Of a DNA stretch of 51,786 nucleotides, positions 3,486 through 51,786 are shown piece by piece. Position 1 is the first letter of the stretch; the number at the start of each line of letters is the position of its first letter. Position numbers and translations under genes: made by a program. The DNA lies in NCBI GenBank assembly GCA_012728835.1, contig JAAYEJ010000052.1:1-51786 (forward strand). Reading direction: 5' to 3'. This DNA comes from Candidatus Brocadiaceae bacterium (GTDB lineage Bacteria; Planctomycetota; Brocadiia; SM23-32). The notes under the pieces were generated by a model that was not told the DNA's origin, ran no database searches, and saw nothing but the letters and a program-made list of their open reading frames with translations.

Positions 3486-3523
3486 CTGGATCACCCGTTG
3501 CAGTGCGCCAACCGGCAGCGCCG

Positions 3524-5251: not shown

Positions 5252-5553
5252 GCGCCCGATCCCTCCGCCCCCCGAAACGCGGCACTGCCCATGAAGACGT
5301 TCAGGAACCCGCGTCGGTTCCCGGAAATCGGCGAGCTTCACGAAATCTGCCCGGCTACATCATAACCGCATTGACGCCCGTAGTCCGAGAACGTGCCGCC
5401 ATAGTGTGATCCGCAGGAGACGCCCCGACCATAAGCGCCGATCACGCTCCCGCATCGGGCCCTCCGGTCCGGCCCGCAGGAGTATGCGGCGGCAATGTCA
5501 CCGTTTTGTTACGGACCGGGCGTCTGGGAGCATATACCCCGGGATGGCAGAGG

Positions 5554-6402: not shown

Positions 6403-6482
6403 CGCGCCTCCCTCCGCCTCCGCGTCGACGCCCTCCTCGCCCGCGGCAGGCCATTCCGGCCCGCTCCGCAACGGCCCCGGCG

Positions 6483-6511
6483 AACATACCGAGGTGGCAC
6501 CGCCGGGTCAA
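6483..6511 (-). promoter_or_regulatory. Sigma70-like promoter of the PHP gene
   Basis: Reading the minus strand, TTGACC (6511-6506) and TATGTT (6488-6483) are separated by 17 bases. The predicted start is near 6476, giving a leader of about 75 bases before the ATG at 6402. It is arranged divergently with the promoter at 6552-6580. Confidence 0.55.
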
Positions 6512-6551
6512 GCGTCTACCCCCAATGGGTAGGCACGGCCCCGCCGAAATC

Positions 6552-6580
6552 TTGCCAATCCCGCCTGCCCACGGTATCAT
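6552..6580 (+). promoter_or_regulatory. Sigma70-like promoter of the GNAT gene
   Basis: TTGCCA (6552-6557) and TATCAT (6575-6580) are separated by 17 bases. Transcription should begin near 6587, about 39 bases before the ATG at 6626. It shares the intergenic region with the PHP-gene promoter on the other strand. Confidence 0.55.
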
Positions 6581-6625
6581 CCGGTCGCGCGGGGCGTCCG
6601 GACGAACGACAGCAGCCGAGACGGC

Positions 6626-7474: not shown

Positions 7475-7526
7475 CGCCCGTGCCACACAAAAGGACTTCT
7501 TCAGCGAGTTCAGAGGCCGGCTGCCT

Positions 7527-8327
7527 TCACACGTCCAGGTCCCCGACCTCGCGAATCCAACCGCGAAGCCACTCGACGGACTCCAGGCCGATGTCCGTCA
7601 GCGTGCTGGCGCAGAAGACGATGCCGTCCAGGTCGCCGCTCCGGATCCCGTCCAGATAGCGCGCGCACTGGTACTCCATCTGCCCGGCCGTCATCGGCCG
7701 GCTTTCGCCGTAGTTCCACAGGTAGCAGCCGGCCAGGCGGCGTTTGCCCGGCGTGATGCGGCAGAGCTTCGCGACGTTCTCGTCGATCTTCGGCAGGTCG
7801 GAGCCGCGCCAGGTCCAGAGCGTGATCACGTCGCAGACGTCGAGGTAGGCGCGGTAGTCCTGCGCCAGTTGCCGCTGGTAGTAGACGACCCAGAGGTCGA
7901 GCGGCCGCACCTCGTTGTCGGCCAGGCGCCGCTTGGTCTCCTTCAGTTGGTCCAGGGAGACGCGGGGCTGCGCGTTGTCGACGAAGAAGTCGTCGAAGAT
8001 GCCGCCGCAGACGTTCGGGAACAGGCGCGCCTGCCGGATCACCTCCTCCAGGTCGGTCGCCCCGGCATTGTTGCGCACGGAACTGCCGTCGCCGACGATC
8101 GACCACACCACCCGGTGCAGGTCCTTGAGCTTCTCCGACTCCGCGTCGAACGGCGGCAGCGGCCTGTTGCTCATCACGACGCGGCAGCAGTTGACAAGAC
8201 CGAGATCACGCGCGCTCTCAGCCGGCCCCATGCGATTGACGCCGGGGAGCTTCCATTCGTTGCCGTGATAGGCGTGGTGCGTGCCGGCGTCCTGTCCCCA
8301 GAGCCAGAGCTTCTCCCGCAGTCTCAT
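7527..8327 (-). CDS. Uncharacterised protein, possible TIM-barrel
   Basis: A 266-residue protein that I do not recognise by family. It has no signal peptide. Alternating hydrophobic strands and charged or aromatic ends (GGIFDDFFVD, LDLWVVYYQR, VCDVITLWTWRG, CYLWNYGESRPM, LDGIVFCASTLTDIG) are suggestive of a TIM-barrel such as a glycoside-hydrolase-like fold, but no catalytic pair is claimed. The same frame stays open to 9467, but that part is antisense-type shadow over the next gene. The ATG at 8327 has GGGAGG upstream and overlaps the stop of the beta-helix gene (ATGA), so the two are translationally coupled. Function is probably linked to the secreted carbohydrate-related proteins upstream in the unit. 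Confidence 0.7.
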   Translation of the reverse strand: MRLREKLWLWGQDAGTHHAYHGNEWKLPGVNRMGPAESARDLGLVNCCRVVMSNRPLPPFDAESEKLKDLHRVVWSIVGDGSSVRNNAGATDLEEVIRQARLFPNVCGGIFDDFFVDNAQPRVSLDQLKETKRRLADNEVRPLDLWVVYYQRQLAQDYRAYLDVCDVITLWTWRGSDLPKIDENVAKLCRITPGKRRLAGCYLWNYGESRPMTAGQMEYQCARYLDGIRSGDLDGIVFCASTLTDIGLESVEWLRGWIREVGDLDV

Positions 8328-10045
8328 CGATCGCCTCCCGCCGGCGGCCGGTTCCGGCGCTGCCACTCGAAGATGGACGGCACGTCCGGCCGGGGCCGCG
8401 GGGGCATGCCGTCGGCGGCCTCCAGGATCACGCTCCCCTCGACCACGGCGGCGGACGGACTGCCGGCGAAGACCGCGCCGTTGCCCCCGTAGACGGTGTT
8501 CCCGACCATCGTCAGACCGCTCGTGCGCGCGGCGTCTTCGGCGACCACCGCGGCGAAGTCGTCGGCGACCGAGAACACGTTGCCCTTGATGACGTGATCG
8601 AACTGCGCACCGCGCATGAGGATGGCGGGGCCGCGCGAGAGGATGCGGTTGTGGAAGAAGAGCCAGTTCTCGTTCATCCCGCCCAGCACGATGCCGCAGG
8701 GGCCGTAGTGCATCATGCCCGGCTCGAAGACCACGTGCTCGGTGGTGTTCCGGAAGTCGCAGTTGTAGAAGCAGTTGCGCGGGCCGTTCGGGCCGTGGCT
8801 GCTGTCCGACGGCGGCGTCGCCCAGAAGGCGTGCCCATACGAGCCGCCGCCCGTGGGCCGGCCGCGCGGCTCGAGGATCACGCAGTTCTCCCACAGGTTC
8901 TCGTGACACCAGCCGGAATGCATCTGCCCGTCGCTGTAGTAAAACGTGGAGTTGCGGAACACGCAGCCGCTGCACGCCCAGTCGAGGTTGGGGGCGTGCC
9001 GCATGTTGCGCGTGGTGACGTTCTCCATCAGGCAGTCCGAGCTGTACTGCCATCCCACGTACGCGGTGCCGGCCCCGCCCATGTCGTGCGCGTGGTTGAA
9101 CTCGCAGTCGCGGATCTCCATCCACTTCACGTGGGACCCGTAGAGGGGCATGCGGCCGGTCCAGTCCACGGTCACCCGGCGGCCCCAGCAGTTGACGGCC
9201 CGCAGGAAGAGCACGGTGCAGATCTTCGGCTCGCGGCGGGCCTGCGTGATGAAAAGGTCCTCGATGCCGCAGCGCTCGATGGGGGCGGCGCTCGTCACGT
9301 ACGACGCGTCCGCCAGCGGGAAGTCGATGCGCAGCGGCTGGTTGATCGTGACGGTGCGGCCCTGTACGCGCTCGATGCGCACCATGGTTCGGCGCGGATT
9401 GTGCCGGCACAGGCTCTCGATCAGCAGCTGCCAGCGGTCCGTATTGTGGGCCTCGAGGGCCAGCCACTGGCCGGGCGCCAGACCGTCGGCGTCCTGCAGT
9501 TCCAGATGCGTGTCGCCGCGCCGCCCGTCGGCCGCCAGCAGGCGCTCATCCTCTTCGCCGCCGCCGGCGAAGGTGATGACGCCGTCCGTGATGCGCCCGC
9601 CGCTCTCGTTGTAGCGGATGACGATCCTGGTCTTGTCCCGACCGGCGCCGCGGATGACGACCCCGTTCTGCCGGATCAGCACCTTGCGGTCGAGGTGGTA
9701 GGTCCCCTCGCCCAGCAGCACGGCCCCGCCGCCCGCCCGGCCGGCCGCGCTGCAGGCCGTCTGGAGCGCATCCGAGTCGTCCCGGTCGTCGTCGGCGCGG
9801 CCGCCGAAGTCCTCGATCCGGCAGAAGGCCCGCACGTCCGGAATCCCCCCCTGCACGCCCGCACCCGTCCAGTCGGGAAACCAGGTCTCGCCGTCGGGGC
9901 CGAGCACGTCAGCAGCCGTGCCGCCCTGCCTGTACTGCGGAGGCCACGGCGTCGAGGCGGCCTCCGCGCCCTGCAGGCCCGATTCCACGGCCATCAGCAC
10001 GCCGCACGCGGTCAGAACGACAACCAGCATCTCCACTGTACCCAT
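8324..10045 (-). CDS. Secreted right-handed beta-helix protein (pectate-lyase-3-like)
   Basis: A 573-residue protein with an N-terminal hydrophobic export segment (MLVVVLTACGVLMAVESG). From about residue 75 it has the signature of pectate lyase 3/end-sialidase-type beta-helices: DFGGRADDDRDDSDALQTA, then GGGAVLLGEGTYHLDRKVLI and VVIRGAGRDKT. The remainder is rich in short Asn- and Gly-ending coils (NVTTRNMRHAPN, VFRNSTFYYSDG, NCDFRNTTEHVVF) typical of parallel beta-helix rungs. Such proteins bind or cleave acidic polysaccharides outside the cytoplasm; catalytic residues cannot be assigned here. It is followed by an overlapping gene and preceded by the FGE-fold gene 69 bases upstream. A perfect 7-bp hairpin lies at 10056-10071 in that gap. 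Confidence 0.82.
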   Translation of the reverse strand: MGTVEMLVVVLTACGVLMAVESGLQGAEAASTPWPPQYRQGGTAADVLGPDGETWFPDWTGAGVQGGIPDVRAFCRIEDFGGRADDDRDDSDALQTACSAAGRAGGGAVLLGEGTYHLDRKVLIRQNGVVIRGAGRDKTRIVIRYNESGGRITDGVITFAGGGEEDERLLAADGRRGDTHLELQDADGLAPGQWLALEAHNTDRWQLLIESLCRHNPRRTMVRIERVQGRTVTINQPLRIDFPLADASYVTSAAPIERCGIEDLFITQARREPKICTVLFLRAVNCWGRRVTVDWTGRMPLYGSHVKWMEIRDCEFNHAHDMGGAGTAYVGWQYSSDCLMENVTTRNMRHAPNLDWACSGCVFRNSTFYYSDGQMHSGWCHENLWENCVILEPRGRPTGGGSYGHAFWATPPSDSSHGPNGPRNCFYNCDFRNTTEHVVFEPGMMHYGPCGIVLGGMNENWLFFHNRILSRGPAILMRGAQFDHVIKGNVFSVADDFAAVVAEDAARTSGLTMVGNTVYGGNGAVFAGSPSAAVVEGSVILEAADGMPPRPRPDVPSIFEWQRRNRPPAGGDR

Positions 10046-37354: not shown

Positions 37355-37941
37355 CCCGAACACCCCCCCGGCGCGCCGAGTCCGGCCCCGCACAGCACCC
37401 GGATCCGGGCGCCGCCGGGCCGTCTCGCCGTCCGGGCCGGCCGTTCCGACTGCTTGTCAATGAACGGCATTGTATCCGGTCCCCCCCCCTTGCGCCAGTG
37501 AATCGGAGGAATCCCGCGGCACGCCGCGCCAACGACGCCCCGCCCCGCCCCTTCGCTGGGCAGGCACGGCCGTTTCGCCCGCCCTGGCGGGCACGCGCCC
37601 GGCCGTGCAGGTTCCCGCCGGACGGCGCGGCCCTGCGTGCACGCGTCGCCCCCTTTGATGGCGCCGGGCCGAATATCAGGGATTCCCTCATCGTATCTAC
37701 CGTGATTCCCGTCTTGTGGCGCCACGGGCGTCCCGTTACCTTATGCACGCTGCCCGGATGAAGGCCGGGCCGACCGTGAGAACGGCTGGGCGACTGAACA
37801 AACCAGCCCGGTGCCCCACTAACTGGGCAAGCTCGCAGGATGCGCCGGAGATGCGCGGGCGGAGGCATCTTCTCACGGGGGCGCGTGGCGCGGAACGTCA
37901 TTTGCGTTGCTGCGTCGTGCCACCACGGAGGGAAGTGGACA
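37355..37941. other. Intergenic region between rRNA promoters and the dksA-like gene
   Basis: About 590 bases with no supportable gene. It contains a TTGTGG-N17-TACCTT promoter candidate for the dksA-like gene at 37714-37742. The open frames that cross it lack ribosome sites and family features. Confidence 0.5.
37714..37742 (+). promoter_or_regulatory. Possible promoter of the dksA-like gene
   Basis: TTGTGG (37714-37719) and TACCTT (37737-37742) are separated by 17 bases. The predicted start is near 37749, which would give an unusually long leader of about 190 bases before the ATG at 37942. Confidence 0.4.
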
Positions 37942-38448
37942 ATGAAGAGAACGAAGAGGGACAACGTGAGCAAGAAAGCGATTGAGCGGAGCCTCCAGGA
38001 CCTCGAGAAGCGTCTGAAGGACGAACTCCACCAACACCTGGGCAAGCTCCGGAACGTCTCCGGCGGCCAACCGTCGGAGCTTCTGGACATCGTGGCCGAG
38101 GGGGAGCTGGACTTCATGTCGGCCCGCTCGGCCGAGGCCGGCTCGACCACCATCGCGGAGGTCCGGCTGGCCTTGGAGAAGCTCCGTCAGGGCACATACG
38201 GCGTCTGCGACGACTGCGGACGGCAGATCGCGCCCCGGCGCCTCAAGGCCAGGCCGTTCGCCACGCTCTGCCTGTCCTGCAAGGAACAGCAGGAGCGCAT
38301 GGGATACAGCTCTCACGCGACCGCGGTGCCCGTGCGCACGGGCGCCGTCGCCGTAAGCCTCACGGGCGAGGACCTGCACGAGAGCGAGGAAGGCGGCTCG
38401 GACCTGCTGCGCGACATCGAGGACCTCGAGGTCAACGAGATGTTCTGA
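37942..38448 (+). CDS. DksA/TraR C4-type zinc-finger protein
   Basis: A 168-residue protein with a helical N-terminal half and the DksA/TraR zinc finger VCDDCGRQIAPRRL...CLSCKEQQE (four cysteines, about residues 90-115). Residues 30-85 (LLDIVAEGELDFMSARSAEAGSTTIAEVRLALEKL) form the coiled-coil part that enters the RNA polymerase secondary channel in this family. The C-terminal 45 residues are acidic. DksA-type proteins tune rRNA transcription, which fits its place beside the rRNA promoters, though that link is inference. The ATG at 37942 has GGAGGG at some distance; the GTG at 37966 is an alternative. A strong terminator follows. Confidence 0.88.
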   Translation: MKRTKRDNVSKKAIERSLQDLEKRLKDELHQHLGKLRNVSGGQPSELLDIVAEGELDFMSARSAEAGSTTIAEVRLALEKLRQGTYGVCDDCGRQIAPRRLKARPFATLCLSCKEQQERMGYSSHATAVPVRTGAVAVSLTGEDLHESEEGGSDLLRDIEDLEVNEMF

Positions 38449-38725: not shown

Positions 38726-38800
38726 TGGTGACCCCACGGGGAATCGAACCCCGGTTGTCGGATCGAAAATCCGGTGTCCTCTCCGCTGGACGATGGGGCC
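38726..38800 (-). tRNA. tRNA-Glu (UUC)
   Basis: The minus strand reads GGCCCCATCGTCCAGCGGAG at the 5' end, anticodon TTC in a TTTTCGA loop, T-arm GGGGTTCGATTCCCC and an encoded CCA at 38728-38726. The first anticodon-stem pair is a C-A mismatch; all other stems pair. No other tRNA is adjacent. Confidence 0.95.
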
Positions 38801-38857
38801 ATGGGATACGGCGCGACCGCGCCGCATGAGGGCATTATACCATCCCGCCCGCCCGGT

Positions 38858-41731
38858 TCAAACGCAAAGCCCCCCCGCCGGGCACCCCTGCCGAGGGCAG
38901 GCGGCGCGCGGCACACCCGTGAGCAGCCCGCTCACCTCCACTTCCAGCAACTGCCGGCTCCCGTCCTGCAGAAGGCCCACCCGACGGCCCACCTCCACGC
39001 GCACCCGGCGCTCCGCCGTGCCGAAGCGCTCTGCGCGAGCGAGCACCAGGTCCACCACGCGGCGGCGGGCCATCCGTTCGGCCTCGTCCAGCCGCCCGAA
39101 TTCGTGCCGTCCTTCGGACTCGTGCACCACGTAGGTGCCCTCCGGACCGGGACGTACGCGCACGGTCTCGCGCACGATGACCCGGCTGACGGCCGCCCCG
39201 ACGGCGCCGGCCACCTCGGCATGCTCCGGGACACGCGGCGTCGTGCCCAGGCGCCGGCACGCGCCGGGCAGGAAGGCCCCCACCGGCGCCCCGATGCCGA
39301 TCACGGGCCGGCGCTGCTCCCAGCGGAGCCGGAACGCTTCGCTCCCCCCCGATTCGCCGAGCCCGCCCAGGACCGCCTCGGCCGCCTCGATCGCCCCGGC
39401 CTCGTGCCCGGCGTCGCTCAGTTCGCACCGCACGACGGCCAGCGCGAGCCGGCGTTCGGCCTCCCGGCGGATCCGTTCGGCCGCCTCCACCGCCGACACG
39501 CCCATGAGCGCCCCGAAGGCCTCCAGTCCCCGCCGCGCGCACTCCTCGTCATACGCCCGGTAGACGCCCAGGACGTGCAGCGCGTCGGTGGGCGTCACAC
39601 CCGCGCGGCGCACCAGGCCCGCGCGCTCCAGGCGGGCCGTCCGGAGGAGTTCCGGCGCCGTGAGCGCGCAGGCGGCGGCCAGATCCTCCCGACTGCGCGG
39701 GCGCTCGGCCAGGCGCGCAACGATCGCCTCCTCCTGCGCGTCCAGCCGATGCCCCTGCGCCGAACCGGCCAGGACGTAGAACTCGGGCAGGCCCGTCCGG
39801 CCGGCGGCATCAAGCGCGCCGGACCCGGCCAGCAACTCGGCGGCCACCTGCGGCCACTGCGCGCCCAGGCTGCACAGCGGCACGACGCGCTCGGGCCCCA
39901 GCCGCACGCGCCCGCCCGCGGCGGGCCGCACGGCGCTGTCGCCGCCCAGCCCCGCCGTCCGGATGTCGGCGGCGGCCACGCTCGTGCGCTGCCCGCCGAC
40001 GCGCGCTCCCTCGGCGCTCAGGCGCAGGATGCCGTCGGACAGCGCGGCGACGTCGGTCGTGGTGCCGCCCATGTCGAGCACCAGCGCGTCGGTGCTCCCG
40101 GTCAGGAAGCGCGCCCCGGCGGCGCTGGCCGCCGGCCCGCTCAGCACCGTTTCGATGGCGCGCTCGCGGGCGGCATCGGCGCCCATCACGCCACCGTCTC
40201 CGCGCACGACGAACAGCGGCCCGCCGATCCCCGCCTCCCTCAGCACGGCGCGGGCGGACGCGATCAGGCCGTCGATCACCGGCAGCAGGCGGGCGTTCAG
40301 GACGGCCGTACGGGCGCGCGCCGCGAAGTCCAGGCGGTCCGACAGCTCATGGCCGCACACGACGGGCAGGGGGAAGCGCGCGCGCAGGAGGCGTTTGACC
40401 TGCTGCTCGTGCAGGGGGTTGCGCACGGCCGCGTAGCCGCTGACGGCGAACGCCGCCGCGCCCCGCTCCACAAGTTCCTCGGCCGCACCGAGCACCTCGG
40501 CCTCGTCCACGGCCTGCTCGGGCTCGCCGTGGATGTTCATCCGGGCCCCCAGGCAGCGCACCAGTGGTGCGCGCACCATCTGTGGGTGCACGCGCTCGGC
40601 GTGCCCCTCGTGGTACGGCATCAGCAGCAGACCCACGGGCCACCCGCGCTCCTCGACGATGGCGTTCGTGGCCAGCGTGGTGGAGAGGCAGGTGTAGCCG
40701 ACGCGCCGGCGGTGGCCGGGGTCCAGGGCCGCCAGCGCGTTGCGTATGCCGATCGTGGGGTCATCGTGCGTCGTGGGCGCCTTCGCCGTGCCGAGGATGC
40801 GGCCGGTGGCGAACTCCATGAGCGCGACGTCCGTGAACGTGCCGCCGGCGTCGATCCCGAGCCCGACCTCCGCCTCCGGCTCCCCGGCCGGCGCATCGCC
40901 CTCCCAGAACGTGCCCGTCGCGGCCGCCGGCCCGGCCGGGTCGGCCGGCCCGGCCGGGTCGGACGCGCCCGCCTCCCGTGCAAGCGGCACGGCCGCCAGG
41001 ACGCGCTCGTCGTTCGTGGCGACGGTCAGGCTCCCCGGCGGGGCGACGAGGAAGCGTTCCTCGTCCCATTCGCCCCCCGCAAGGGCCTCCAGGAGCGCCA
41101 GACTGCCCTCCAGGCGCTCGTAATCCCAGCCGGCCGCGCTCGCCACGGCGCGCGTCGCCTGCTCCTGCTCGTCGGTCACGAATCCGTGGTCGATCAGCGC
41201 CGCCCGCCGGTAGTTGCGCCGCCAACTCTCCAGGAACTCGACGATGTACCGTGCGTTGTCCTCCCCGTGCCGCTCCCTGAACTCCGCGAAGTGCGGGTGC
41301 CGCGTCGGGTCAAACCGCCGCGCGGCCGCCATGCGCACGTGGTCCGGGTGGGCCTTGTAGCGGTGCCAGCCGGTGGTGAAGTAGAACGTGCCCGGATGCC
41401 GCGTGAACTGCTCGGCGTATGCGCGCGCGCTCCCAAGGAAGAGCGAGATGCAGTCGTGCACGCGGGGGATGACCAGCGGCACCCCGCGCGCGATCAGCCC
41501 GGCCGTCCCGCGCCCACAGAGCCCGTAGCCCAGGCAGACGGCATCGCAGCCGCCGCGCGCGGCGCGGTCGATCGCCTCCTGCGCCTGCAGCCGCAGCCGG
41601 TCGGGCGCCGCGTGCAGCCCCGCGTCGAGCAGGACCAGCTTGATGTCGTGGGGCGAACGTGCGGCGACGGCGTGCAGTTCGTCCTCGAGGACGCCGCACG
41701 CGATGACCTGCAACCGGAGGGGTTTCATCAT
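38858..41731 (-). CDS. DUF1638-hydantoinase/oxoprolinase (HyuA) fusion protein
   Basis: A 957-residue protein made of two domains normally encoded apart. Residues 1-230 are a DUF1638 domain: LQVIACGVLEDELHAVA, CDAVCLGYGLCGRGTAGL, PLVIPRVHDCISLFLGS and the GTFYFTTGWHRYK end. A low-complexity linker (about 250-290) with DPAGPADPAGPA leads to the ASKHA-type hydantoinase/oxoprolinase domain: VGLGIDAGGTFTDVALME, LSTTLATNAIVEERGW, ETVLSGPAASAAGARFL and ALVLDMGGTTTDVAAL, the two phosphate-binding motifs. DUF1638 proteins and HyuA-like ATPases both occur near corrinoid methyltransferase systems, suggesting activation of a C1-transfer protein, but no such gene is in the window. The ATG at 41731 has no Shine-Dalgarno site; a promoter lies about 47 bases upstream. 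Confidence 0.85.
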   Translation of the reverse strand: MMKPLRLQVIACGVLEDELHAVAARSPHDIKLVLLDAGLHAAPDRLRLQAQEAIDRAARGGCDAVCLGYGLCGRGTAGLIARGVPLVIPRVHDCISLFLGSARAYAEQFTRHPGTFYFTTGWHRYKAHPDHVRMAAARRFDPTRHPHFAEFRERHGEDNARYIVEFLESWRRNYRRAALIDHGFVTDEQEQATRAVASAAGWDYERLEGSLALLEALAGGEWDEERFLVAPPGSLTVATNDERVLAAVPLAREAGASDPAGPADPAGPAAATGTFWEGDAPAGEPEAEVGLGIDAGGTFTDVALMEFATGRILGTAKAPTTHDDPTIGIRNALAALDPGHRRRVGYTCLSTTLATNAIVEERGWPVGLLLMPYHEGHAERVHPQMVRAPLVRCLGARMNIHGEPEQAVDEAEVLGAAEELVERGAAAFAVSGYAAVRNPLHEQQVKRLLRARFPLPVVCGHELSDRLDFAARARTAVLNARLLPVIDGLIASARAVLREAGIGGPLFVVRGDGGVMGADAARERAIETVLSGPAASAAGARFLTGSTDALVLDMGGTTTDVAALSDGILRLSAEGARVGGQRTSVAAADIRTAGLGGDSAVRPAAGGRVRLGPERVVPLCSLGAQWPQVAAELLAGSGALDAAGRTGLPEFYVLAGSAQGHRLDAQEEAIVARLAERPRSREDLAAACALTAPELLRTARLERAGLVRRAGVTPTDALHVLGVYRAYDEECARRGLEAFGALMGVSAVEAAERIRREAERRLALAVVRCELSDAGHEAGAIEAAEAVLGGLGESGGSEAFRLRWEQRRPVIGIGAPVGAFLPGACRRLGTTPRVPEHAEVAGAVGAAVSRVIVRETVRVRPGPEGTYVVHESEGRHEFGRLDEAERMARRRVVDLVLARAERFGTAERRVRVEVGRRVGLLQDGSRQLLEVEVSGLLTGVPRAACPRQGCPAGGLCV

Positions 41732-41777
41732 TGTGGAAATGCATTCACGAAGAGTGGAAGAGCATCTGCAGAGGTCC

Positions 41778-41806
41778 ATAATATGCCCGATTCCCGCGCT
41801 CGACAA
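41778..41806 (-). promoter_or_regulatory. Promoter of the DUF1638-HyuA fusion gene
   Basis: On the minus strand TTGTCG (41806-41801) and TATTAT (41783-41778) are separated by 17 bases. The predicted start is near 41771, leaving a leader of about 40 bases. An in-frame upstream ATG at 41779 overlaps the -10 element and can therefore be excluded as the start. Confidence 0.6.
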
Positions 41807-41844
41807 GGCGAGACGCAAGATGGGAGAATCTCGTGGAACTTCCG

Positions 41845-41874
41845 TTGTCCAAACGACGTCGAATGCCGTAGATT
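41845..41874 (+). promoter_or_regulatory. Possible promoter of the alpha-2-macroglobulin gene
   Basis: TTGTCC (41845-41850) and TAGATT (41869-41874) are separated by 18 bases. The predicted start is near 41881, about 58 bases before the ATG at 41939. It is divergent from the promoter at 41778-41806. Confidence 0.4.
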
Positions 41875-41938
41875 GACCATCAGCCGTTGCGCGCCGCTGC
41901 GCGCATCCGCCGGGGAACACTCGCATGAGGAGTCGCCG

Positions 41939-44900
41939 ATGCGTCGCCGGATACCGCCGAAGGGGATCGCCGTCGCCGGACTGCTCGCCGTCGTCGCCCT
42001 GACCTGCCTGCACGCCGCCCCGGCCGCGCCGCCGTCCATGGCCGACGCCGACCGGCTGTTCGAGCAGAAGAACTACGCGGAGGCGGCCGACGCCTACGGC
42101 GCACTCGTGGCGGCCGGGGGCGCCGACTGGCATCTGGCCGCCGAGCGGGTCATCATGAGCCGGCTGCGGCTGCAGTCGTACGACGAAGCGATCACAGCCG
42201 CCGAGGACTACGTGGTGCGCACGGCGGGCATGCGCCTGGAGCCGCACGCTGAGCGCCTGGCCGGCCACCTCTACATGCTCCTCCCCCACTGGGGCACGCG
42301 CGCGGGCGGGGAGTTCTACCGCGGCGAGCACCGCCAGGGCACCTTCCTCCAGAGCCATCAGCACGACAAGCGCCTCGCCGTCGCGCACATGGAACGGGCG
42401 CGCGATCTGTATGCGCAGCATGACGACGGGACCGACCCGGCCTGGCGCGAGGAGCGGATCGAGTGCCTCTTCGATCTGGTCAGCCTGCTCTCGCAGTTCT
42501 CGATCTACGACGACCAGCCGCAGTACTGGCATCGCTGGTGGGGCGAACGCGACGGCTTCCTGGCCGTGACGGCCGGGGAAGACGATTTCGATGAGGGCTA
42601 CAGTTACGGGGACATGCACCGGAAGCGCCCGATCGGGCTCCGGATCGGGCCGGACGGCGAGCCGGTCTTCCCTTCCCTGCCCAAGGACTACACCGACCAG
42701 ACGCCGGCCGACCAGAAGATGCTCTACCTCCTGGACGAGGTGCGCAGGCTCGACCGGACGGAGGAGCGCAAGCACACGGCGCTGAGCTACTACCGGCAGG
42801 CCATGCTGGCCCGGAAGCGGTTCGGCATGGACCGTCTCAGGAGTTACGCCAGCCCTTACTACTCCGCCACCGGTTCGGCGCGCAGCTCCGGCCAGCCGCT
42901 CAACTCCGGCCAGCCGCTTCAGGAGGAACTGGATTCGTTCAATCCGTGGGAACTGGAGGACGGCGAGGCCCTGGTGCTGGCCGGCGGGCGCATCTGCAAG
43001 GTCGAGCTGCCGCCCGCGTTCGACGTGTTGGGACTGCTGCGCACGGTGGCGGGCGACTACGCCGCCGGTGGCGTCGCCCCCGAGGCGCGCTACGCGATCG
43101 GGCTCTACTGCCAGAGCCGCCAGCAGTACACGCAGGCGCTGGCCGAGTACGAGGCGCTGCGCGAGGCGTTCCCGGAGAGTCCGTGGGCCGGTCACGCGGC
43201 CGATCAGGCCGCGGAGATCCGGTCGCCGCAGGTGCAGTTGAGCGACAACGGAGTCCAGGCGCCCGGCCGGCCGGCCGAGCTGCAGATCAGCTACCGCAAC
43301 CTGGACCGCATTCACTTCATCGCGCGCCGCTTCGACCTGCCGGCGATGCTCCGGGAGATCCGCGAGGAGGCCCGCAAGGAGACGGACGATGCTCAGCGCC
43401 ACGTGTGGCTGCACTGGCAGTGGTCCCACTACCTCGTGCGTGAGCGCGGGACCGACTGGGCCAGCGGCCTGGTGGCCAGGCACCTCGGCCCGGAGGTGGC
43501 CCGATGGGCCGACACCGTGCCGAACGACGGCACGCACCGCTACGCGCAGGCGACGCTTCGGTCGCCTCTGACGGAACGCGGCGCCTATGTCGTGTACGCC
43601 TTCACCGAGGAGCCGTCGACCGCCGCGGGCGCCGGGCGCTCCACCGAGGCCCTCGGGCGGGGACAGAGCCGCGCCGTCGTCGTGCTGAACGACCTGGCCC
43701 TCGTTGAGAAGAAGACGGACAAGGGCACACTCTGCTACGCGGCCGACGCCGTCACCGGCGCACCGGTCGCGGGTGCGGCGATGAACGCACTGGAGACCTG
43801 GACCACCTACGATCCGAAGACGCGCAGGCAGACGTGGCATACGGCGACCACGGATCTGACAACCGACGAGCACGGCATGGCCGTGCTGCCGCGCCAGCCC
43901 GGCCGGGGCGGCGAGGTGTACTGGCTGGCCACGACCCCGGGCGATCGCTTCGCGTGGTCCGGCATGAGATTCTCGCGCAGCGGCATCGGTTCGATCATGC
44001 GCGAGGGGATGTTCGTCTACCTCGTCACCGATCGGCCTGTCTACCGCCCGGGGCAGACGGTGCGCTTCAAGGTCTGGGTCCGAGACGTGCGGAACGGCGT
44101 TCCTGAGAACATGCCGCAGACCGCCCTTCGCGTCGCACTGTACGACCCGCGCGGCGACGAGGTCCTTGCAGTCGACAAGCGCACCGACGACTTCGGCGGA
44201 CTGGACGGCGAGTTCACTCTGGACGCGGAGGCGACGCTGGGCGTCTACACCCTGAATGTCCCCGACACGCGGCTCTACGGGGGGCCGCACTTCCGCGTCG
44301 AAGAGTACAAGAAGCCGGAATTCGAGGTGACCGTCGAGCCGAGCGAGACGCACACAAAGCTCGGGGAGCCCCTTCAGGCGGTCGTCAAGGCCAGTTACTA
44401 CTTCGGTGCGCCCGTGACCGACGCCACTGTCAGCTACCGGGTGTTCCGCGAGGAGTACCGTCACAGCTACTACTTCCCCGGCCGCTGGGACTGGCTCTAC
44501 GGACCGGGCTACGGCCAGGCGTGGTACGCGCACGACTGGTTCCCCTGGTGGGGCGCCCTGCGCTCCTGCTGGAGCCCGCCGTCCTGGTGGTGGGGATACT
44601 CCCACTATCAGCCGGTCCGCGAACTGGTCAAGGAGGGCGAATCGCCGATCGCCGAGGACGGGCGGCTCGTCATCGACATCGACACGGCACCCGCGCTGCG
44701 CGACCACCCGGACCGCGACCACCGCTACGTCGTCCAGGCGGACGTGCGCGACGCCAGCCGGCGCGTCATCAGCGGCGAAGGCGACGTGAAGGTCACCCGC
44801 CAGGCCTACTACGCCATGATCCAGTCCGACCGCGGCTACTACCGGCCCGGTGAGGAGATGGTGATCCGCGTGCGCTGCCTGACGCCGGACGACCGGCCCG

Positions 44901-47900
44901 TGCAGGCCGAGGGCCTGCTGACCGTCTCCCGCGTCGTCTTCGGAGGCCCCGACAACGGCCACATCGCGGAGGAGGAGCTGGACCGCTGGACGGCCTCCAC
45001 CGACGGACAGGGCGAGCTGAGCTTCCGCCTTCGCCACGAGCGGAGCGACCAGCTCAAGATCGCCTTCGCGGCACCCGACGAGTGGGGCGGCACGGTGACC
45101 GGCTACGGCCTGGTGTGGGTCTGCGGCCGCGACTTCGACGGCCGCCTCTACCGCTTCAACGACCTGGAACTCATCACGGACAAGCGCACCTACGAGCCGG
45201 GCGACGTCTGCCGCCTGATGATCAACACCCGCCGGCCGGACAGCTACGTGCTGTTCGCCGACGCCGTCGACAAAGGCTCCCTGCTCAGCTACCGCCTGCT
45301 GCACCTGCCGGCCGGCCACACCGTCGTCGACGTGCCGATCAAGGAAGCCCACCGCCCCAACACCTTCGTTGAGGCGTGCCTGGTGAGCGACCTGCGCGTG
45401 CACCAGCAGGCGGAGCGTATCTGCGTGCCGCCGCAGGATGCGGTTCTGAACATCGAGGTCCACACCGACAAACCCCGCTACGCCCCCGGCGAGGACGCGC
45501 GGGTTCGCGTGCGCGCGGTCGGCCCCGACGGCGAGCCGGCGGACGTCCAGATGGTCCTGAGCGCCTTCGACCGCTCGGTGCTCGCCATCCAGCCGGAATA
45601 CGCGCCCGTCATCAGCACGTTCTTCCACGGACAGGTGCGCAGCCACACGTCTCTGATGAGGACGAACCTTCTGGAACGGTTCGGGGCCTGGGGTTACGTG
45701 CTCCGTCCGTTCGAGAGTCTGAACCCCCTGCCGCCCGCCTGGCAGGGCACATGGAGCCCGCAGGTCGAGGGCTGGGCCTGGCTGACCGACGCCGAGTTCC
45801 GGAATCTGGCCGGCGGCGGGGGTATCGCCTATTCCCGGGCCATGTTGGGAGGCGGTGGCGGCATGCCCAAGGCGCTGGCGGCGGAGGCGGCGGACATGGC
45901 CGAGGGTGCGCCCATGGCCGCGGCCCCCGCGCCCGGCGCGGCGGACGGGGGCGCGGCGGAGGACGCGGCGTTCGTCGCCCCCCAGGTGCGCGAGGCCTTC
46001 GCCGACACGGCCTTCTGGACCCCCTCCCTCCTGACCGGCCCGGATGGTGAAGCCGAGGTCACGTTCGCGATGCCTGAGAACCTTACGACCTGGAAGGTCA
46101 ACGCCTGGGCCGTGGGACGGGATCCCCGCGTCGGCCAGGCGTCCACGGAGGCCGTGACGACCAAGGACCTGATCGTACGGCTGCAGGCGCCGCGCTTCTT
46201 CCTGGAGTACGACGAGGTCGTCCTGAGCGCAAACGTCCACAACTACCTCGATTCCGCCAAGACGGCCCGTGTCAGCCTGGAGGTGCCGCCCGAGCACCTG
46301 GCGCTGATGGACGGCAGCCCGGCCACCGTGGACGTCGAGGTGGCGGCCGCCGGCGAGCGCCGCGTCGACTGGCGCGTGCGCGTCGTTGCGGAGGGCACGG
46401 CGGCCGTCACAGTCAAGGCGCTCACGGACGAGGAGTCCGACGCCATGCGCATGACCTTCCCGGTGCTTGTGCACGGCATGACGAAGCAGGAGTCCTGGTG
46501 CGGCTCGATGCGGCCGGCCGAGGACGCCGCCGAGCACGTGATCGAGTTCACGGTGCCCGAGCAGCGCCGCCCCGAGCTGACCCGGCTCGAAGTCCAGTTC
46601 GCACCCAGCCTCGTCGGCGCCATGCTGGACGCCCTCCCCTACTGCCTCGATTACCCCTACGGCTGCACCGAGCAGACGGTCAGCCGCTTCCTTCCGGCCG
46701 TGCTCACCCTCAAGACCCTCCAGAACATGGGCATCCGCCTGGAGGACGTCCGCGGGATCCGCGGCCGCATGGCCGAGGTGCGCCGGATCGAGGAAGGGGA
46801 GAACATCCGCATCTATGCCGACAGCCCCATCTTCGACTCTGAGGAACTGCAGCGCCTGATCGCCGCCGGCCTCAAGCGCATCGCCGAGATGCAGCACGCC
46901 GACGGCGGCTGGGGCTGGTGGACGCAGGGCGAATCCAGCCCGTACCTCACGAGCTACGTCCTCCAGGCGCTCGTCGGCGCGCAGGAGTGCGACGTCGCCG
47001 TCGACCAGAACATGATCGACCGCGGCATGGAGTTCCTGCGCCAGTGGGAGATCGACCAAATGCAGCGCACGGACTGGACGGCCGGCGAGGTGCATGCGTT
47101 CGCAGCCTACGTCCTGTCCCTGAAGGGGCTGAAGGCCCAGGACGAGAAGGCGGGCGACTGCGTCGAGCGCCTCTTCGAGGGCCGCGACCGGCTGAACCTG
47201 TACGGCAAGGCCCTGCTGAGCCTGACGCTCGCAAACCTGAACGACACCGAGCGGGCCCGCCTCGTCCTGCGCAACATCCTGCAGTACGTGGAGCAGAACG
47301 AGGGGACGCAGATCGCGTGGTTCCGCACGCCTACCCAGGGCTGGTGGTACTGGTGGAACTCGGACATCGAGACCAACGCCTGGTGCCTGCGCGCGCTCGT
47401 GCGGCTGGAGCCGGAGAGCGAGATCGCGCCGCGGCTGGTGAAATGGCTCCTGGAGAACCGCCGCAACGGCTACTACTGGCGCTCGACGCGCGACACGGCG
47501 CTCTGCGTGGGGGCCATGAGCGACTTCGTTGCGGCCACGGGCGAAGGCCGCCCCGACTGCACGGTGGCCCTGAGCCTGGACCAGGGCGCGGTCGTCAAGA
47601 GCGTGAAGATCGACCGGGACAACTTCTTCACCTACGACAACTCGTTCGTGGTGGAGGGCCACGCGTTGGCCGGCGGCCCCCACACCCTGCGGGTCAGCAA
47701 GGACGGCCCCGGGGCGCTCTACTACTCCGTGCGCCTGAGCTACTTCACGAAGGAGGAGCACATCACGGCCTCGGGCCTGGAACTGAAGATCGACCGCACC
47801 CACTACCTCCTGCGCCGCATGCCGTACGAGGTCGAGGTGGAGGGCGCCGAGGGCCAGCAGCTCTCCGAGCGACGCCTGCGCTACGAGCGCGTGCCGCTCC

Positions 47901-48256
47901 GAAACGGCGACCGCATCGAGAGCGGCGACCTGGTGCAGGTCGAACTCCGGGTGACCGCGGACAACGACTACACCTACCTCATGTTCGAGGACATGAAGCC
48001 GGCCGGCTGCGAACCCGTGGAACTGCGCAGCGGCGGACAGCGCCAGGAGGGTTTCCACACCTACATGGAGCTGCGGGACGAGAAGGTGGCGTTCTTCGCC
48101 GAGACGATCGGCCGCGGCGAACACCTGCTGCGCTACCGGCTGCGCGCGGAGATCCCGGGCGTCTTCCACGCCCTGCCGGCCGTCGTGCAGGGGATGTACG
48201 CACCCGAACTGCGCGGAAACAGCGACGAGGCCGTCCTCCGCGTCGAGGACCGGTGA
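41939..48256 (+). CDS. Alpha-2-macroglobulin family protein with TPR-like N-terminus
   Basis: A 2105-residue exported protein. The signal peptide (IAVAGLLAVVALTCLHAAPA) is followed by TPR-like repeats to about residue 450. An MG2 domain lies near residue 690 (VYLVTDRPVYRPGQTVRFKV) and further macroglobulin domains follow. Around 840-900 is an insert packed with Trp and Tyr. Residues about 1291-1349 are Gly/Ala/Met-rich, in the position of a bait region. The A2M domain starts near 1354 (FADTAFWTPSLL) and the thioester motif YGCTEQ has Cys1576 and Gln1579 intact, followed by the alpha-toroid (DGGWGWWTQGESSPYLTSYV). Such proteins trap attacking proteases at the cell surface. AGGAG lies 7 bases before the ATG. 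No partner penicillin-binding protein gene (pbpC) is adjacent. Confidence 0.93.
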   Translation: MRRRIPPKGIAVAGLLAVVALTCLHAAPAAPPSMADADRLFEQKNYAEAADAYGALVAAGGADWHLAAERVIMSRLRLQSYDEAITAAEDYVVRTAGMRLEPHAERLAGHLYMLLPHWGTRAGGEFYRGEHRQGTFLQSHQHDKRLAVAHMERARDLYAQHDDGTDPAWREERIECLFDLVSLLSQFSIYDDQPQYWHRWWGERDGFLAVTAGEDDFDEGYSYGDMHRKRPIGLRIGPDGEPVFPSLPKDYTDQTPADQKMLYLLDEVRRLDRTEERKHTALSYYRQAMLARKRFGMDRLRSYASPYYSATGSARSSGQPLNSGQPLQEELDSFNPWELEDGEALVLAGGRICKVELPPAFDVLGLLRTVAGDYAAGGVAPEARYAIGLYCQSRQQYTQALAEYEALREAFPESPWAGHAADQAAEIRSPQVQLSDNGVQAPGRPAELQISYRNLDRIHFIARRFDLPAMLREIREEARKETDDAQRHVWLHWQWSHYLVRERGTDWASGLVARHLGPEVARWADTVPNDGTHRYAQATLRSPLTERGAYVVYAFTEEPSTAAGAGRSTEALGRGQSRAVVVLNDLALVEKKTDKGTLCYAADAVTGAPVAGAAMNALETWTTYDPKTRRQTWHTATTDLTTDEHGMAVLPRQPGRGGEVYWLATTPGDRFAWSGMRFSRSGIGSIMREGMFVYLVTDRPVYRPGQTVRFKVWVRDVRNGVPENMPQTALRVALYDPRGDEVLAVDKRTDDFGGLDGEFTLDAEATLGVYTLNVPDTRLYGGPHFRVEEYKKPEFEVTVEPSETHTKLGEPLQAVVKASYYFGAPVTDATVSYRVFREEYRHSYYFPGRWDWLYGPGYGQAWYAHDWFPWWGALRSCWSPPSWWWGYSHYQPVRELVKEGESPIAEDGRLVIDIDTAPALRDHPDRDHRYVVQADVRDASRRVISGEGDVKVTRQAYYAMIQSDRGYYRPGEEMVIRVRCLTPDDRPVQAEGLLTVSRVVFGGPDNGHIAEEELDRWTASTDGQGELSFRLRHERSDQLKIAFAAPDEWGGTVTGYGLVWVCGRDFDGRLYRFNDLELITDKRTYEPGDVCRLMINTRRPDSYVLFADAVDKGSLLSYRLLHLPAGHTVVDVPIKEAHRPNTFVEACLVSDLRVHQQAERICVPPQDAVLNIEVHTDKPRYAPGEDARVRVRAVGPDGEPADVQMVLSAFDRSVLAIQPEYAPVISTFFHGQVRSHTSLMRTNLLERFGAWGYVLRPFESLNPLPPAWQGTWSPQVEGWAWLTDAEFRNLAGGGGIAYSRAMLGGGGGMPKALAAEAADMAEGAPMAAAPAPGAADGGAAEDAAFVAPQVREAFADTAFWTPSLLTGPDGEAEVTFAMPENLTTWKVNAWAVGRDPRVGQASTEAVTTKDLIVRLQAPRFFLEYDEVVLSANVHNYLDSAKTARVSLEVPPEHLALMDGSPATVDVEVAAAGERRVDWRVRVVAEGTAAVTVKALTDEESDAMRMTFPVLVHGMTKQESWCGSMRPAEDAAEHVIEFTVPEQRRPELTRLEVQFAPSLVGAMLDALPYCLDYPYGCTEQTVSRFLPAVLTLKTLQNMGIRLEDVRGIRGRMAEVRRIEEGENIRIYADSPIFDSEELQRLIAAGLKRIAEMQHADGGWGWWTQGESSPYLTSYVLQALVGAQECDVAVDQNMIDRGMEFLRQWEIDQMQRTDWTAGEVHAFAAYVLSLKGLKAQDEKAGDCVERLFEGRDRLNLYGKALLSLTLANLNDTERARLVLRNILQYVEQNEGTQIAWFRTPTQGWWYWWNSDIETNAWCLRALVRLEPESEIAPRLVKWLLENRRNGYYWRSTRDTALCVGAMSDFVAATGEGRPDCTVALSLDQGAVVKSVKIDRDNFFTYDNSFVVEGHALAGGPHTLRVSKDGPGALYYSVRLSYFTKEEHITASGLELKIDRTHYLLRRMPYEVEVEGAEGQQLSERRLRYERVPLRNGDRIESGDLVQVELRVTADNDYTYLMFEDMKPAGCEPVELRSGGQRQEGFHTYMELRDEKVAFFAETIGRGEHLLRYRLRAEIPGVFHALPAVVQGMYAPELRGNSDEAVLRVEDR

Positions 48257-48288
48257 GGCGCGCCGGGCGCGACGCCGCCGGGCCAGCC

Positions 48289-48397
48289 TGTCATGCTGCG
48301 GCGCCGCTCGGACGCCGAAGCATCTCGCCGTCACTGGCCGTGCCCCGCCTCGGACGTCGAGGTTCTTCGCCCGCCCTGCGGCGGGCTCAGAGTGACA
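48289..48397. repeat. Dispersed palindromic element with inverted ends
   Basis: The left end TGTCATGCTGCGGCGCCG and the right end GGCGGGCTCAGAGTGACA are imperfect inverted repeats, each next to a GAAGCATCTCG or GAGGTTCTTCG block. The whole forms a 109-base imperfect palindrome 32 bases after the alpha-2-macroglobulin stop, between convergent genes. The left half resembles the copy at 23594-23640. Confidence 0.65.
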
Positions 48398-48410
48398 ATG
48401 GGAGGCCGTC

Positions 48411-48437
48411 GGAGGGGCACGCGCCGTCGTGCCCGCC
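48411..48437. repeat. Single inverted copy of the right-edge repeat core
   Basis: GGAGGGGCACGCGCCGTCGT at 48411-48430 and the next few bases match, with one or two changes, the reverse complement of the GGGCACGACGGAGCGTGCCC core found four times at 51435-51786. It directly follows the palindromic element at 48289-48397. Confidence 0.7.
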
Positions 48438-48485
48438 CGTGTGCCCCAAGCTGGGTGGTCCGCCCGTGCCAGCGCCCGGCGGCGC

Positions 48486-51287
48486 TCATCGGCCCGCGTC
48501 GTCCGCACCCGGGGCGTGCAGCATGCGCCACAGGATGTGGGCCTCGGCCTCGGCGGCGGTAACCGGTTCGCCGCCCTCCACCAGGGGCTCCAGCAGCAGC
48601 CGGGCCCGCGCCTGGCCCATCGGCCCCTGCCCCGCGTGCCAGCGGGCCACGGCAGCGGTCCGGACGGCCGCGTAGTATCGGCGCAGGAACCGGGCGGTCG
48701 CGTCCTGGGGGTTGACTGCCAGCGCCCGGTCGAACAGCGCCATCGCCCGCGCGAAGGCGTCGTCGAAGTCCTGCAGATACTCCATCATCAGCCCCTCCGC
48801 CACGGCCTGGGTCAGCACCGTCGTGCCCTCCACCCACCGTTCGAGCGACTCGCGGGTGGCCGCCTCGCGCCCCGCCGGCACACTGTACAGGAGGTCCCAG
48901 GGCGAACGCCGCATCCCCGCGAGCAGGAACAGCGCCCGCACGTGCGAGTTCATGGGGTAGGAGCGGCTGCAGTGGAACTCCACAATCGGGATGTCGTCGG
49001 TGTTCAGGGGCCCCTGGCCGACCGCGCGGCGCAGGTCGTCGCCTTCGCCGCAGAAGGCACTCAGGAAGTCGCAGGCGTCCACGACGCCGTTGGCCGCCAG
49101 GCGCTCCTTGACGGCGGGCCGGTCGAGGCGGCGCTCCAGCTCGGCGAAGTCGATGCGCAGGGGGCCTTCGGTGCCGATCAGGATGCAGAAGTCGGCGGTG
49201 TACTTGAACCAGACGCTCGCGTGCGGGAACTCGACCAGGAAGGACCGGATCAGCATCCGGAAGTCCTCCTCCGGCATGCTGTGGAGCGGCAGCCACTGGC
49301 AGATGATGCCGCCCGGCGCCAGGATGCGCTTGCACTGGCGGTAGAAGTCCACGCCGTAGAACCCGGCGTTCCCGGCGTTGAGCCCCGGGTGGATGATGCC
49401 GGCCTGCACGACGTCGTAGCGCTCACGCGTGCCCAGCACGTAGTTGCGCCCGTCGTCGATGCGCAGGTGCACGCGGGGGTCCGAGAGCACGTCGCCGTTG
49501 TACTTCTTGAACCAACCGCTCACGCGCCGCACGCCCGGGCTCAGTTCCACCACGTCGACCTCGACCCCGTGGGCGACGGCGGCCTGCGACGTGAAGCCGA
49601 TGCCGAACCCGATCAGCAGCGCACGCTGCGGGGCCGGATGCAGCAGCAGCGGCACGTGGGCGATCATCTCGTGGCTGGGCCGGTCGTGCCGCGTGGTGCG
49701 CGCGACGCCCGTCTCGTTCACATACAGATCGAGCGCGAACCCGGCGGTCTCCAGCACGCTGACGGTCGACTCGACGTCCTCGTGATAGTCGAGCACGCGC
49801 ACCATGTCGCGGTTGCGCGTCGCCCCCGTGGCGTGGATCAGCTCCAGGCGCGGCATCAGCAGCAGCGCCGGGGCGGCCACGACCAGGGCGGCGGAGAGGA
49901 GGAACGCCGGCCGCCGCCGCGCGACGCGCTGCCCCGCCGGCCGCGCCGCCAGCATCCAGGCACCCAGCGCCAGGTTGACGACGGCCGTGACGATGATGGA
50001 GCGCTGGATACCGAGAACGGGAATCATGATGAAGCCGCCGACGAAGGCGCCGAAGATCGACCCCACCGTGTCCAGGCAGCCGATCACACCCATGCGGCGG
50101 CCCAGCCGCTTCAGTGCGGGCACGTAGATGCGCGAGACCACCGGCATCGTGGCGCCCATCAGGGTGGTCGGGATCAGGATGACGACCATCGAGATGACGA
50201 ACTGCCCGCCCGCCACCGCGCCCCATCCGTACAGGCGCAGGGCGCCCTCCATCGTGCCGTAGAACCGCATGAGCCATGGCAGCAGGGGGATCGTCACGAG
50301 CGCCGACAGGCCGATGCCGACCTCGATGGCCGCCAGCAGGCGGTAGGGGTCCGTGCGGTCCACCAGGCCGCGCACCAGGAACGCCCCCAGTGAGAGGCCC
50401 ACAAGGAAGGTCGCCGTGATGGTCGTGATGGCGTAGGTGTTGGTGGCCACGAAGAAGATGAGCAGGCGCGTCCACGCCATCTGGTAGGCCAGGGAGGTGA
50501 AGCCCTCGATGCCGAAGACCCACAGCGCCACCTTCACCGCGCGCGGCACGCCGCCCGGCGCCGAATCGGCGGCGGCCGGCGCCGCATCGGCCGCCGCCGG
50601 CGCCGCATCGGACGCCGCCGGCTCGGGGCCGCCCATGAGCCGGTCCAGCAGCATGGCCCCGGCCCCGACGGACACGTTCAGCGCGGCGGCCAGGAGGAGC
50701 GTATGCGCCTGGCCCAGGAACTCCAGGAACACGTAGCCCGCCAGGACGCAGCCGACGACCGCCCCGAGGTTGTTGACCGAGTAGAGCCCCGCCACCTCGC
50801 CGCCCAGCCGCCGGCGGTGCCGGACGTAGGCCCGGGCCAGCACCGGCAGGGTGCCGCCCATCAGGGCGGTCGGGATGAGCAGCATGGCGAAGGACAGGGC
50901 GAACCGCACGAGGCTCATCACGTAGTGGTTGGCCCCGAAGGCGCCGTAGAACGCCACGTACAGGGGCGTGGCGGCGTCGGCCAGCAGCGGGAAGCACGCG
51001 CCGAAGACGCCGATGCCCACCTCCAGCAGCGCGAAGAGCCGCAGGGGGCGGTCCCATCGGTCGGCCAGGCGCCCGATATAGAGGCTGCCGAGGGCCAGCC
51101 CCGCCATGAAGGCCGTCACCACGGCGCTGTTGGCGTAGATGGTGACGCCGAAGACGAGGGCGAGCTGCCGCGCCCAGACGATCTGGTAGATCAGCGCAGC
51201 CGCACCGGAGAGGAAGAACAGGAGGAGAAGGGCCAGCGGGGCGGCACGACGCCAGGGGCCCCCCGTCGGAACGTCAGGCACACTCAT
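48486..51287 (-). CDS. Polytopic membrane protein fused to a spermidine-synthase-like domain
   Basis: A 933-residue protein. Residues 20-480 hold about a dozen transmembrane helices in two halves with matching motifs (GLALGSLYIGRLADRWDRP and GLSLGAFLVRGLVDRTDP; ALMGGTLPVLARAYV and TLMGATMPVVSRIYV), an MFS-like duplication. The halves are joined by an Ala/Asp-rich repeat linker. Residues 560-740 are a spermine/spermidine-synthase-like Rossmann domain (ALLIGFGIGFTSQAAVAHGV, VDVVELSPGVRR, HLRIDDGRNYVLGT). The C-terminal 100 residues are helical. Polyamine synthesis is not proven; many such fusions have unknown substrates. The ATG at 51287 starts just before the first helix, and a promoter lies at 51349-51377. 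Confidence 0.87.
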   Translation of the reverse strand: MSVPDVPTGGPWRRAAPLALLLLFFLSGAAALIYQIVWARQLALVFGVTIYANSAVVTAFMAGLALGSLYIGRLADRWDRPLRLFALLEVGIGVFGACFPLLADAATPLYVAFYGAFGANHYVMSLVRFALSFAMLLIPTALMGGTLPVLARAYVRHRRRLGGEVAGLYSVNNLGAVVGCVLAGYVFLEFLGQAHTLLLAAALNVSVGAGAMLLDRLMGGPEPAASDAAPAAADAAPAAADSAPGGVPRAVKVALWVFGIEGFTSLAYQMAWTRLLIFFVATNTYAITTITATFLVGLSLGAFLVRGLVDRTDPYRLLAAIEVGIGLSALVTIPLLPWLMRFYGTMEGALRLYGWGAVAGGQFVISMVVILIPTTLMGATMPVVSRIYVPALKRLGRRMGVIGCLDTVGSIFGAFVGGFIMIPVLGIQRSIIVTAVVNLALGAWMLAARPAGQRVARRRPAFLLSAALVVAAPALLLMPRLELIHATGATRNRDMVRVLDYHEDVESTVSVLETAGFALDLYVNETGVARTTRHDRPSHEMIAHVPLLLHPAPQRALLIGFGIGFTSQAAVAHGVEVDVVELSPGVRRVSGWFKKYNGDVLSDPRVHLRIDDGRNYVLGTRERYDVVQAGIIHPGLNAGNAGFYGVDFYRQCKRILAPGGIICQWLPLHSMPEEDFRMLIRSFLVEFPHASVWFKYTADFCILIGTEGPLRIDFAELERRLDRPAVKERLAANGVVDACDFLSAFCGEGDDLRRAVGQGPLNTDDIPIVEFHCSRSYPMNSHVRALFLLAGMRRSPWDLLYSVPAGREAATRESLERWVEGTTVLTQAVAEGLMMEYLQDFDDAFARAMALFDRALAVNPQDATARFLRRYYAAVRTAAVARWHAGQGPMGQARARLLLEPLVEGGEPVTAAEAEAHILWRMLHAPGADDAGR

Positions 51288-51434: not shown

Positions 51435-51786
51435 GGGAGCGGGCACGACGGAGCGTGCCCCTCCACGGCGGGGTCGCGTCCGTGCAAGTGGAGGGCCGCG
51501 CTCCGTCGCGGCCGGGGATGGCAGGCGCCCGGTGATTGCAGGAGCGGGCACGACGGAGCGTGCCCCTCCAACGGCGTGGCCGCGTGCGTGCCGGTGGAGG
51601 GCCGCGCTCCGTCGCGGCCGGGGATGGCAGGCGGCCGGTGATTGCAGGAACGGGCACGACGGAGCGTGCCCCTCCAACGGCGTGGCCGCGTGCGTACCAA
51701 TGGAGGGCCGCGCTCCGTCGCGGCCGGGGATGACAGGCGGCCGGTGATTGCAGGAGCGGGCACGACGGAGCGTGCCCCTCCAACGG
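51435..51786. repeat. 106-bp tandem repeat array, running off the right edge
   Basis: The core GGGCACGACGGAGCGTGCCC starts at 51441, 51546, 51652 and 51758, that is at spacings of 105, 106 and 106 bases. Each core is itself a hairpin (GGGCACG/CGTGCCC). Each unit also carries a GGAGGGCCGCGCTCCGTCGC block and a GGCCGGTGATTGCAGGA block. The first unit is the most diverged and the last is cut by the window edge. Frames that cross it on both strands give repetitive peptides and are not considered genes. Confidence 0.93.

Follow-up and report, generated by a model that had tools for sequence, protein, structure and literature searches.

A DUF1638-HyuA fusion protein and its possible part in corrinoid-protein reactivation beside RamA

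The window analysed here is the whole 51,786-nt stretch of contig JAAYEJ010000052.1, from a Candidatus Brocadiaceae bacterium (assembly GCA_012728835.1). One of its genes joins a DUF1638 domain to a HyuA-type ASKHA ATPase in a single chain (Table 1). The coordinates and the length of 957 residues given in the earlier note, which was made from the letters alone, are exact; to these we add the minus strand. The gene is flanked by a divergent alpha-2-macroglobulin gene on one side and by a tRNA-Glu gene 57 nt downstream on the other, past which lies a gene for a DksA/TraR zinc-finger protein. It was also thought to have its own promoter. A promoter-like site (TTGTCG-17-TATTAT) does end 46 nt upstream of the start codon, and about zero such sites occur in shuffles of the region, although a consensus match alone is no proof of function. 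No corrinoid methyltransferase gene was seen anywhere in the window, in agreement with the description of the fusion gene as standing away from any methyltransferase gene there, and a search with PADLOC gave no match that would indicate a defence role for the fusion.

Table 1. Position of the fusion gene, its parts and the upstream promoter-like site within the window.
Feature	Position	Strand	Details and basis
DUF1638-HyuA fusion gene	38858..41731	minus	957 aa, stop codon included (ATG at 41731, stop ending at 38858); open frame, Pfam, fused homologues
DUF1638 domain	41024..41731	minus	residues 1-236; Pfam 35-217, alignment, structure model
Linker	40868..41023	minus	residues 237-288; partly disordered, Ala/Pro/Gly-rich
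HyuA-type ASKHA ATPase half	38897..40867	minus	residues 289-945; Pfam and Foldseek
ATP phosphate-1 motif DAGGTFTD	40829..40852	minus	residues 294-301
ATP phosphate-2 motif DMGGTTTD	40052..40075	minus	residues 553-560
Promoter-like site TTGTCG-17-TATTAT	41778..41806	minus	consensus scan, 9/12 matches

Two frames of more than 3100 codons each run over one 9.5 kb on opposite strands (38774-48256, plus; 38858-48508, minus). Each is a real gene in one part and an antisense shadow in the other, presumably as a result of GC-rich codon usage. The plus-strand frame is the shadow over the fusion gene, and its real gene is that of alpha-2-macroglobulin, from about 41939. Plus-strand coding across 38858-41731 was rejected because every homologue is read on the minus strand. 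The DksA/TraR zinc-finger gene (37840-38448, plus) has similar-looking counterparts near the fusion at two other loci (L035 and L038), where no methyltransferase gene was found near the fusion. At its end, the window holds a tandem array (51436-51786) of units of about 106 nt that are about 91% alike.

The N-terminal half matches the Pfam family DUF1638 (PF07796) at residues 35-217, inside the stretch of 1-230 where the domain had been expected, with an E-value of 4.4e-37 and 127.9 bits against a cut-off of 27. The match covers nearly the whole profile (positions 2-160 of 161). In an alignment of 61 fused and stand-alone DUF1638 sequences, H40, C72, D93 and C94 are invariant and C12 is conserved in at least 90%. 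The structure model of this half is an alpha/beta domain (pLDDT 92.7, pTM 0.88), for which no solved relative was found in the PDB by sequence, nor by fold at E 0.001. The conserved Cys, His and Asp residues come after predicted strands of the model, a placement suggestive of a ligand or metal site. The linker that follows has a pLDDT below 50 at residues 253-267 and is variable in the alignment of relatives from the same class.

Residues 291-451 and 472-793 of the second half match Hydant_A_N (109 bits) and Hydantoinase_A (102.7 bits), respectively. Both ATP phosphate motifs are kept without exception in 67 sequences, with D294, G296, G297, T298, T300 and D301 invariant in the first and D553, G555, G556, T557, T558 and D560 in the second. 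Foldseek finds the best likeness to acetone carboxylase beta, N-methylhydantoinase and caprolactamase, and a weak one to RACo. These two Pfam domains and the fold are common to HyuA/ApcA hydantoinase, oxoprolinase and acetone carboxylase subunits, from which the window protein differs in its N-terminal DUF1638, in having no Pfam match to Hydant_A_C and in carrying GLGGDS where hydantoinases have GAGGGS. It also stands without a nearby HyuB or carboxylase partner; neither a gene nor a domain for the HyuB half was matched within the window or in the flanks of the fused loci. RamA/RACo (DUF4445, PF14574) is likewise an ASKHA ATPase linked to corrinoid proteins, but the window protein has no match to Fer2, RACo-linker, Raco_middle or RACo_C_ter.

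The joining of the two domains in one 957-residue chain is confirmed, as both score far above their Pfam cut-offs in a single frame. The fusion is retained by five relatives from the class, of which four belong to the same family, with identities of 61, 62, 59, 41 and 38%; the search counted one in-frame TGA in the 59% relative, but its aligned part can be translated without a break. The assembly is fragmented (82 contigs), and the earlier note had raised the danger that an error merged two adjacent genes. We found no support for such an assembly or sequencing artefact, and its probability is close to nil because independent genomes carry the identical architecture: beyond the conservation at 38-62% identity in the five relatives, the same single frame recurs across many independent assemblies, including those of four cultured sulfate reducers.

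A search for other fusions, which the earlier note proposed, also shows that the fusion is not exceptional but widespread. In a scan of GTDB genomes, both domains lie in one frame in 73 of the 80 loci listed, giving at least 73 single-frame fusions in about ten phyla. Among these, the DUF1638 match is only partial in L112, L117 and L121, the HyuA part of L104 is interrupted and several end at contig edges. Judged by record titles, the phyla are Planctomycetota, Armatimonadota with WS1 and Zipacnadia, Desulfobacterota, Spirochaetota, Omnitrophota, Lentisphaerota, Kiritimatiellota, Latescibacterota and others. The cultured sulfate reducers are Desulfosarcina widdelii (a complete chromosome), Desulforhopalus singaporensis, Desulfocicer vacuolatum and Desulfofustis glycolicus. 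The linker in fused loci is usually about 40-50 aa long.

A single branch separates the HyuA-fused sequences from the rest of a tree of 113 DUF1638 domains (support 97/49; recovered in 98% of bootstrap trees), a pattern consistent with a single origin. Sampling is uneven, since a fused query retrieved the fused sequences and the stand-alone ones come from one phylum. A quick tree of the HyuA half places several forms without an intact DUF1638 among the fused ones, a nesting that suggests later loss. L112, L117 and L121 are nested among fused forms by their HyuA halves; their partial DUF1638 matches may reflect decay, divergence or frame errors. In the literature searched that names DUF1638, we came across no account of the fusion, though such proteins are very likely deposited in sequence databases with generic names. 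What is already known is the involvement of DUF1638 in B12 reactivation; the fused form itself we found undescribed in that literature.

RamA-like activators of the [2Fe-2S]/ASKHA type return Co(II) cobalamin to Co(I). In Phaeobacter inhibens, fitness data link both DUF1638 and a RamA-like protein to the B12 reactivation that serves a methionine synthase made in three parts (Price 2018, PMC5764234). Mutants of the DUF1638 gene are rescued by methionine, like mutants of the RamA-like gene, and the authors made no specific proposal for DUF1638 (PMC5764234). In Ruegeria pomeroyi, DUF1638 and RamA-like proteins are more abundant on N-osmolytes (PMC12478193). Given these two studies, both of which tie DUF1638 to cobalamin reactivation, the statement in the earlier note that it has no assigned function is out of date. 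The P. inhibens pair (PGA1_c13340, DUF1638; PGA1_c15200, RamA-like; PMC5764234) resembles the case described here in the DUF1638 domain, the three-part methionine synthase, the RamA-like protein and the lack of a MetH reactivation domain. However, PGA1_c13340 stands as its own protein and lacks a HyuA half.

Genome content points the same way. Across 392 genomes of the window's phylum, RamA is encoded in all 45 that have DUF1638 and in 87 of the 347 others, while the MetH reactivation domain is rarer with DUF1638 (19/45 vs 251/347); these cross-genome counts share ancestry and are not phylogenetically independent. DUF1638 and RamA lie no more than 8 kb apart in 14 of the 45 genomes, and around stand-alone DUF1638 genes the order corrinoid protein-DUF1638-RamA is repeated. 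A further link is an 803-aa single frame at L132 (G382:C1, 8489-10900), which combines DUF1638 with a 2Fe-2S motif and with the middle and C-terminal domains of RACo. We discarded the idea that DUF1638 substitutes for the 2Fe-2S domain of RamA in this protein because the CX5CX2C motif is still present. Nor does the HyuA half replace RamA within the phylum in which the genome-wide co-occurrence of the fused form was measured, because the fused genomes encode RamA as well.

The surroundings of the fused genes contain further corrinoid-related genes. Of the 50 fused loci with a searched genome, 12 carry MttB in their flanks against an expectation of about one, an approximate Poisson figure given that MttB genes cluster and some genome counts are lower bounds. 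The flanking MttB is the only one found in the respective genome at L065 and L095. At L065 the fusion and MttB are followed by a corrinoid protein, a pterin methyltransferase and RamA; at L113 both RamA and a corrinoid protein adjoin the fusion, and at L128 RamA does. HyuA proteins of the same clade without DUF1638 also occur in clusters with UROD, a corrinoid protein and a pterin methyltransferase, with RamA at L115 and without it at L122. A spirochaetal locus (L107, Spirochaetales; 2980-8400) has a corrinoid protein, UROD, a CobW-family GTPase and the fusion in a row. Most fused loci, including the one in the window, have no neighbouring corrinoid gene, a point against a corrinoid role that would nevertheless suit a trans-acting factor.

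The earlier note also called for a check of the same genome for corrinoid proteins and MtgB/MttB-type methyltransferases. The fusion is the only DUF1638 protein of this genome. There is one RamA, with Fer2 (2Fe-2S), RACo_linker, Raco_middle and RACo_C_ter domains, and one methyltransferase-type corrinoid protein of 225 aa with both B12-binding domains (B12-binding_2). The other PF02310 matches are longer proteins that look like radical-SAM types. The genome also encodes one stand-alone homocysteine methyltransferase (S-methyl_trans) and a stand-alone pterin methyltransferase, plus a second Pterin_bind match. To judge by their domains, these corrinoid, S-methyl_trans and Pterin_bind proteins are a split methionine synthase with RamA-type reactivation, its pieces at separate loci. 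The MetH reactivation domain (Met_synt_B12, PF02965) is absent from the genome, as is MttB (MTTB, PF06253). A corrinoid protein was thus present as anticipated, but MtgB/MttB is discarded as a partner here because PF06253 is absent, and the available partner is the split methionine synthase.

We favour, with a probability of roughly 0.6, a role of the fusion as an accessory ATPase for corrinoid-protein reactivation, acting beside RamA. The earlier guess at corrinoid activation fits the co-occurrence with RamA, the neighbourhoods, the DUF1638-RamA fusion and the published genetics; MtgB/MttB as the partner does not hold in this genome. The combination of one RamA, one corrinoid protein and separate methyltransferases with no MttB and no MetH reactivation domain makes it likeliest that the fusion helps, driven by ATP, to reactivate a split methionine synthase. 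The fusion would work alongside, not in place of, the RamA-like activator. The conserved Cys, His and Asp residues of DUF1638 may serve to dock it on RamA or the corrinoid protein, and a conformational change that permits reduction of the cobalt could then be powered by ATP turnover in the HyuA half. The client in the window's genome would most likely be the 225-aa corrinoid protein of the split methionine synthase; in the relatives from Desulfobacterota it may often be an MttB-type system. The sequence alone would be compatible with an aid to reduction, an opening of the corrinoid protein or an exchange of damaged cofactor as the step, and does not tell these apart. Stand-alone DUF1638 occurs in P. 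inhibens and in many Planctomycetota and works there without a HyuA half, which leaves linkage as the basis for assigning a role to that half.

A more elaborate version makes DUF1638 a metal- or cluster-binding module, with C12, H40, C72 and C94 placed at strand ends of its fold, that serves as a third reactivation component between RamA and the corrinoid protein. The HyuA half would then be a second ATP-driven gate, and reactivation would involve two different ASKHA ATPases. We regard this as speculative and rather doubtful.

The strongest rival is that the fusion is a repair or loading chaperone, which swaps damaged cobalamin or inserts cobalamin into the corrinoid apoprotein in the style of GlmL/MutL or diol dehydratase reactivase, without aiding reduction. 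This seems unlikely. The protein does match Pfam MutL weakly (39.5 bits vs a cut-off of 27), but the best stretch is only residues 292-340, confined to the common ATP motifs, and the NCBIfam GlmL equivalog scores 29.4 bits against a cut-off of 475. There is also a weak fold likeness to diol dehydratase-reactivating factor (rank 22), and the CobW-type GTPase gene that adjoins one fused gene (at L107) would suit such a chaperone. However, the constant company of DUF1638 with the redox activator RamA in all 45 phylum genomes, and its fusion to RamA itself, points to the reduction step.

Alternatively, the HyuA half may be a small-molecule enzyme, an ATP-dependent amidohydrolase or carboxylase that readies a methylated substrate (e.g. 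N-methylhydantoin) for demethylation. Such an activity would account for the position beside MttB genes, and the nearest solved relatives of this half are indeed hydantoinases, caprolactamase and acetone/acetophenone carboxylases. We nevertheless consider it improbable, more so than the chaperone, given the lack of a HyuB partner in the window and in the flanks of fused loci, the undetected Hydant_A_C, the altered GAGGGS motif, the lack of MttB in the window's genome and the fusion to a domain that genetics places in B12 reactivation.

For the role as accessory ATPase beside RamA, the fusion adds something to the genetics. Mutants have placed DUF1638 in B12 reactivation since 2018, without a mechanism. 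Its retention of a HyuA half in about ten phyla, together with the second fusion to RamA, indicates which ATPases it acts with. The question becomes testable with one polypeptide, a corrinoid protein and RamA, including versions from the cultured sulfate reducers.

Two other systems invite comparison. One is the pair MecG and MecH of the dichloromethane mec cassette, one of which we take to be a DUF1638 protein. They are encoded by separate genes, unlike the single-chain fusion of the window, and no domain names are given for them in the mec-cassette papers searched. The pair has been proposed to reactivate the corrinoid cofactor of the cassette (PMC9768040). The other, likened to the window fusion by annotation and gene placement, is a gene labelled 'HydA, hydantoinase'. 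A figure legend of the same paper (PMC9768040) shows it in clusters for glycine-betaine methyltransferases, next to genes for MTI, a corrinoid protein, MTII and RACE, and gives no function for it. A more distant, stand-alone HyuA is encoded at L036 (G001:C111, 4967-10051) in one run, after MttB and a corrinoid protein and ahead of UROD. The start of this HyuA gene overlaps the corrinoid gene, and the run is likely a methyltransferase operon with its own HyuA ATPase.
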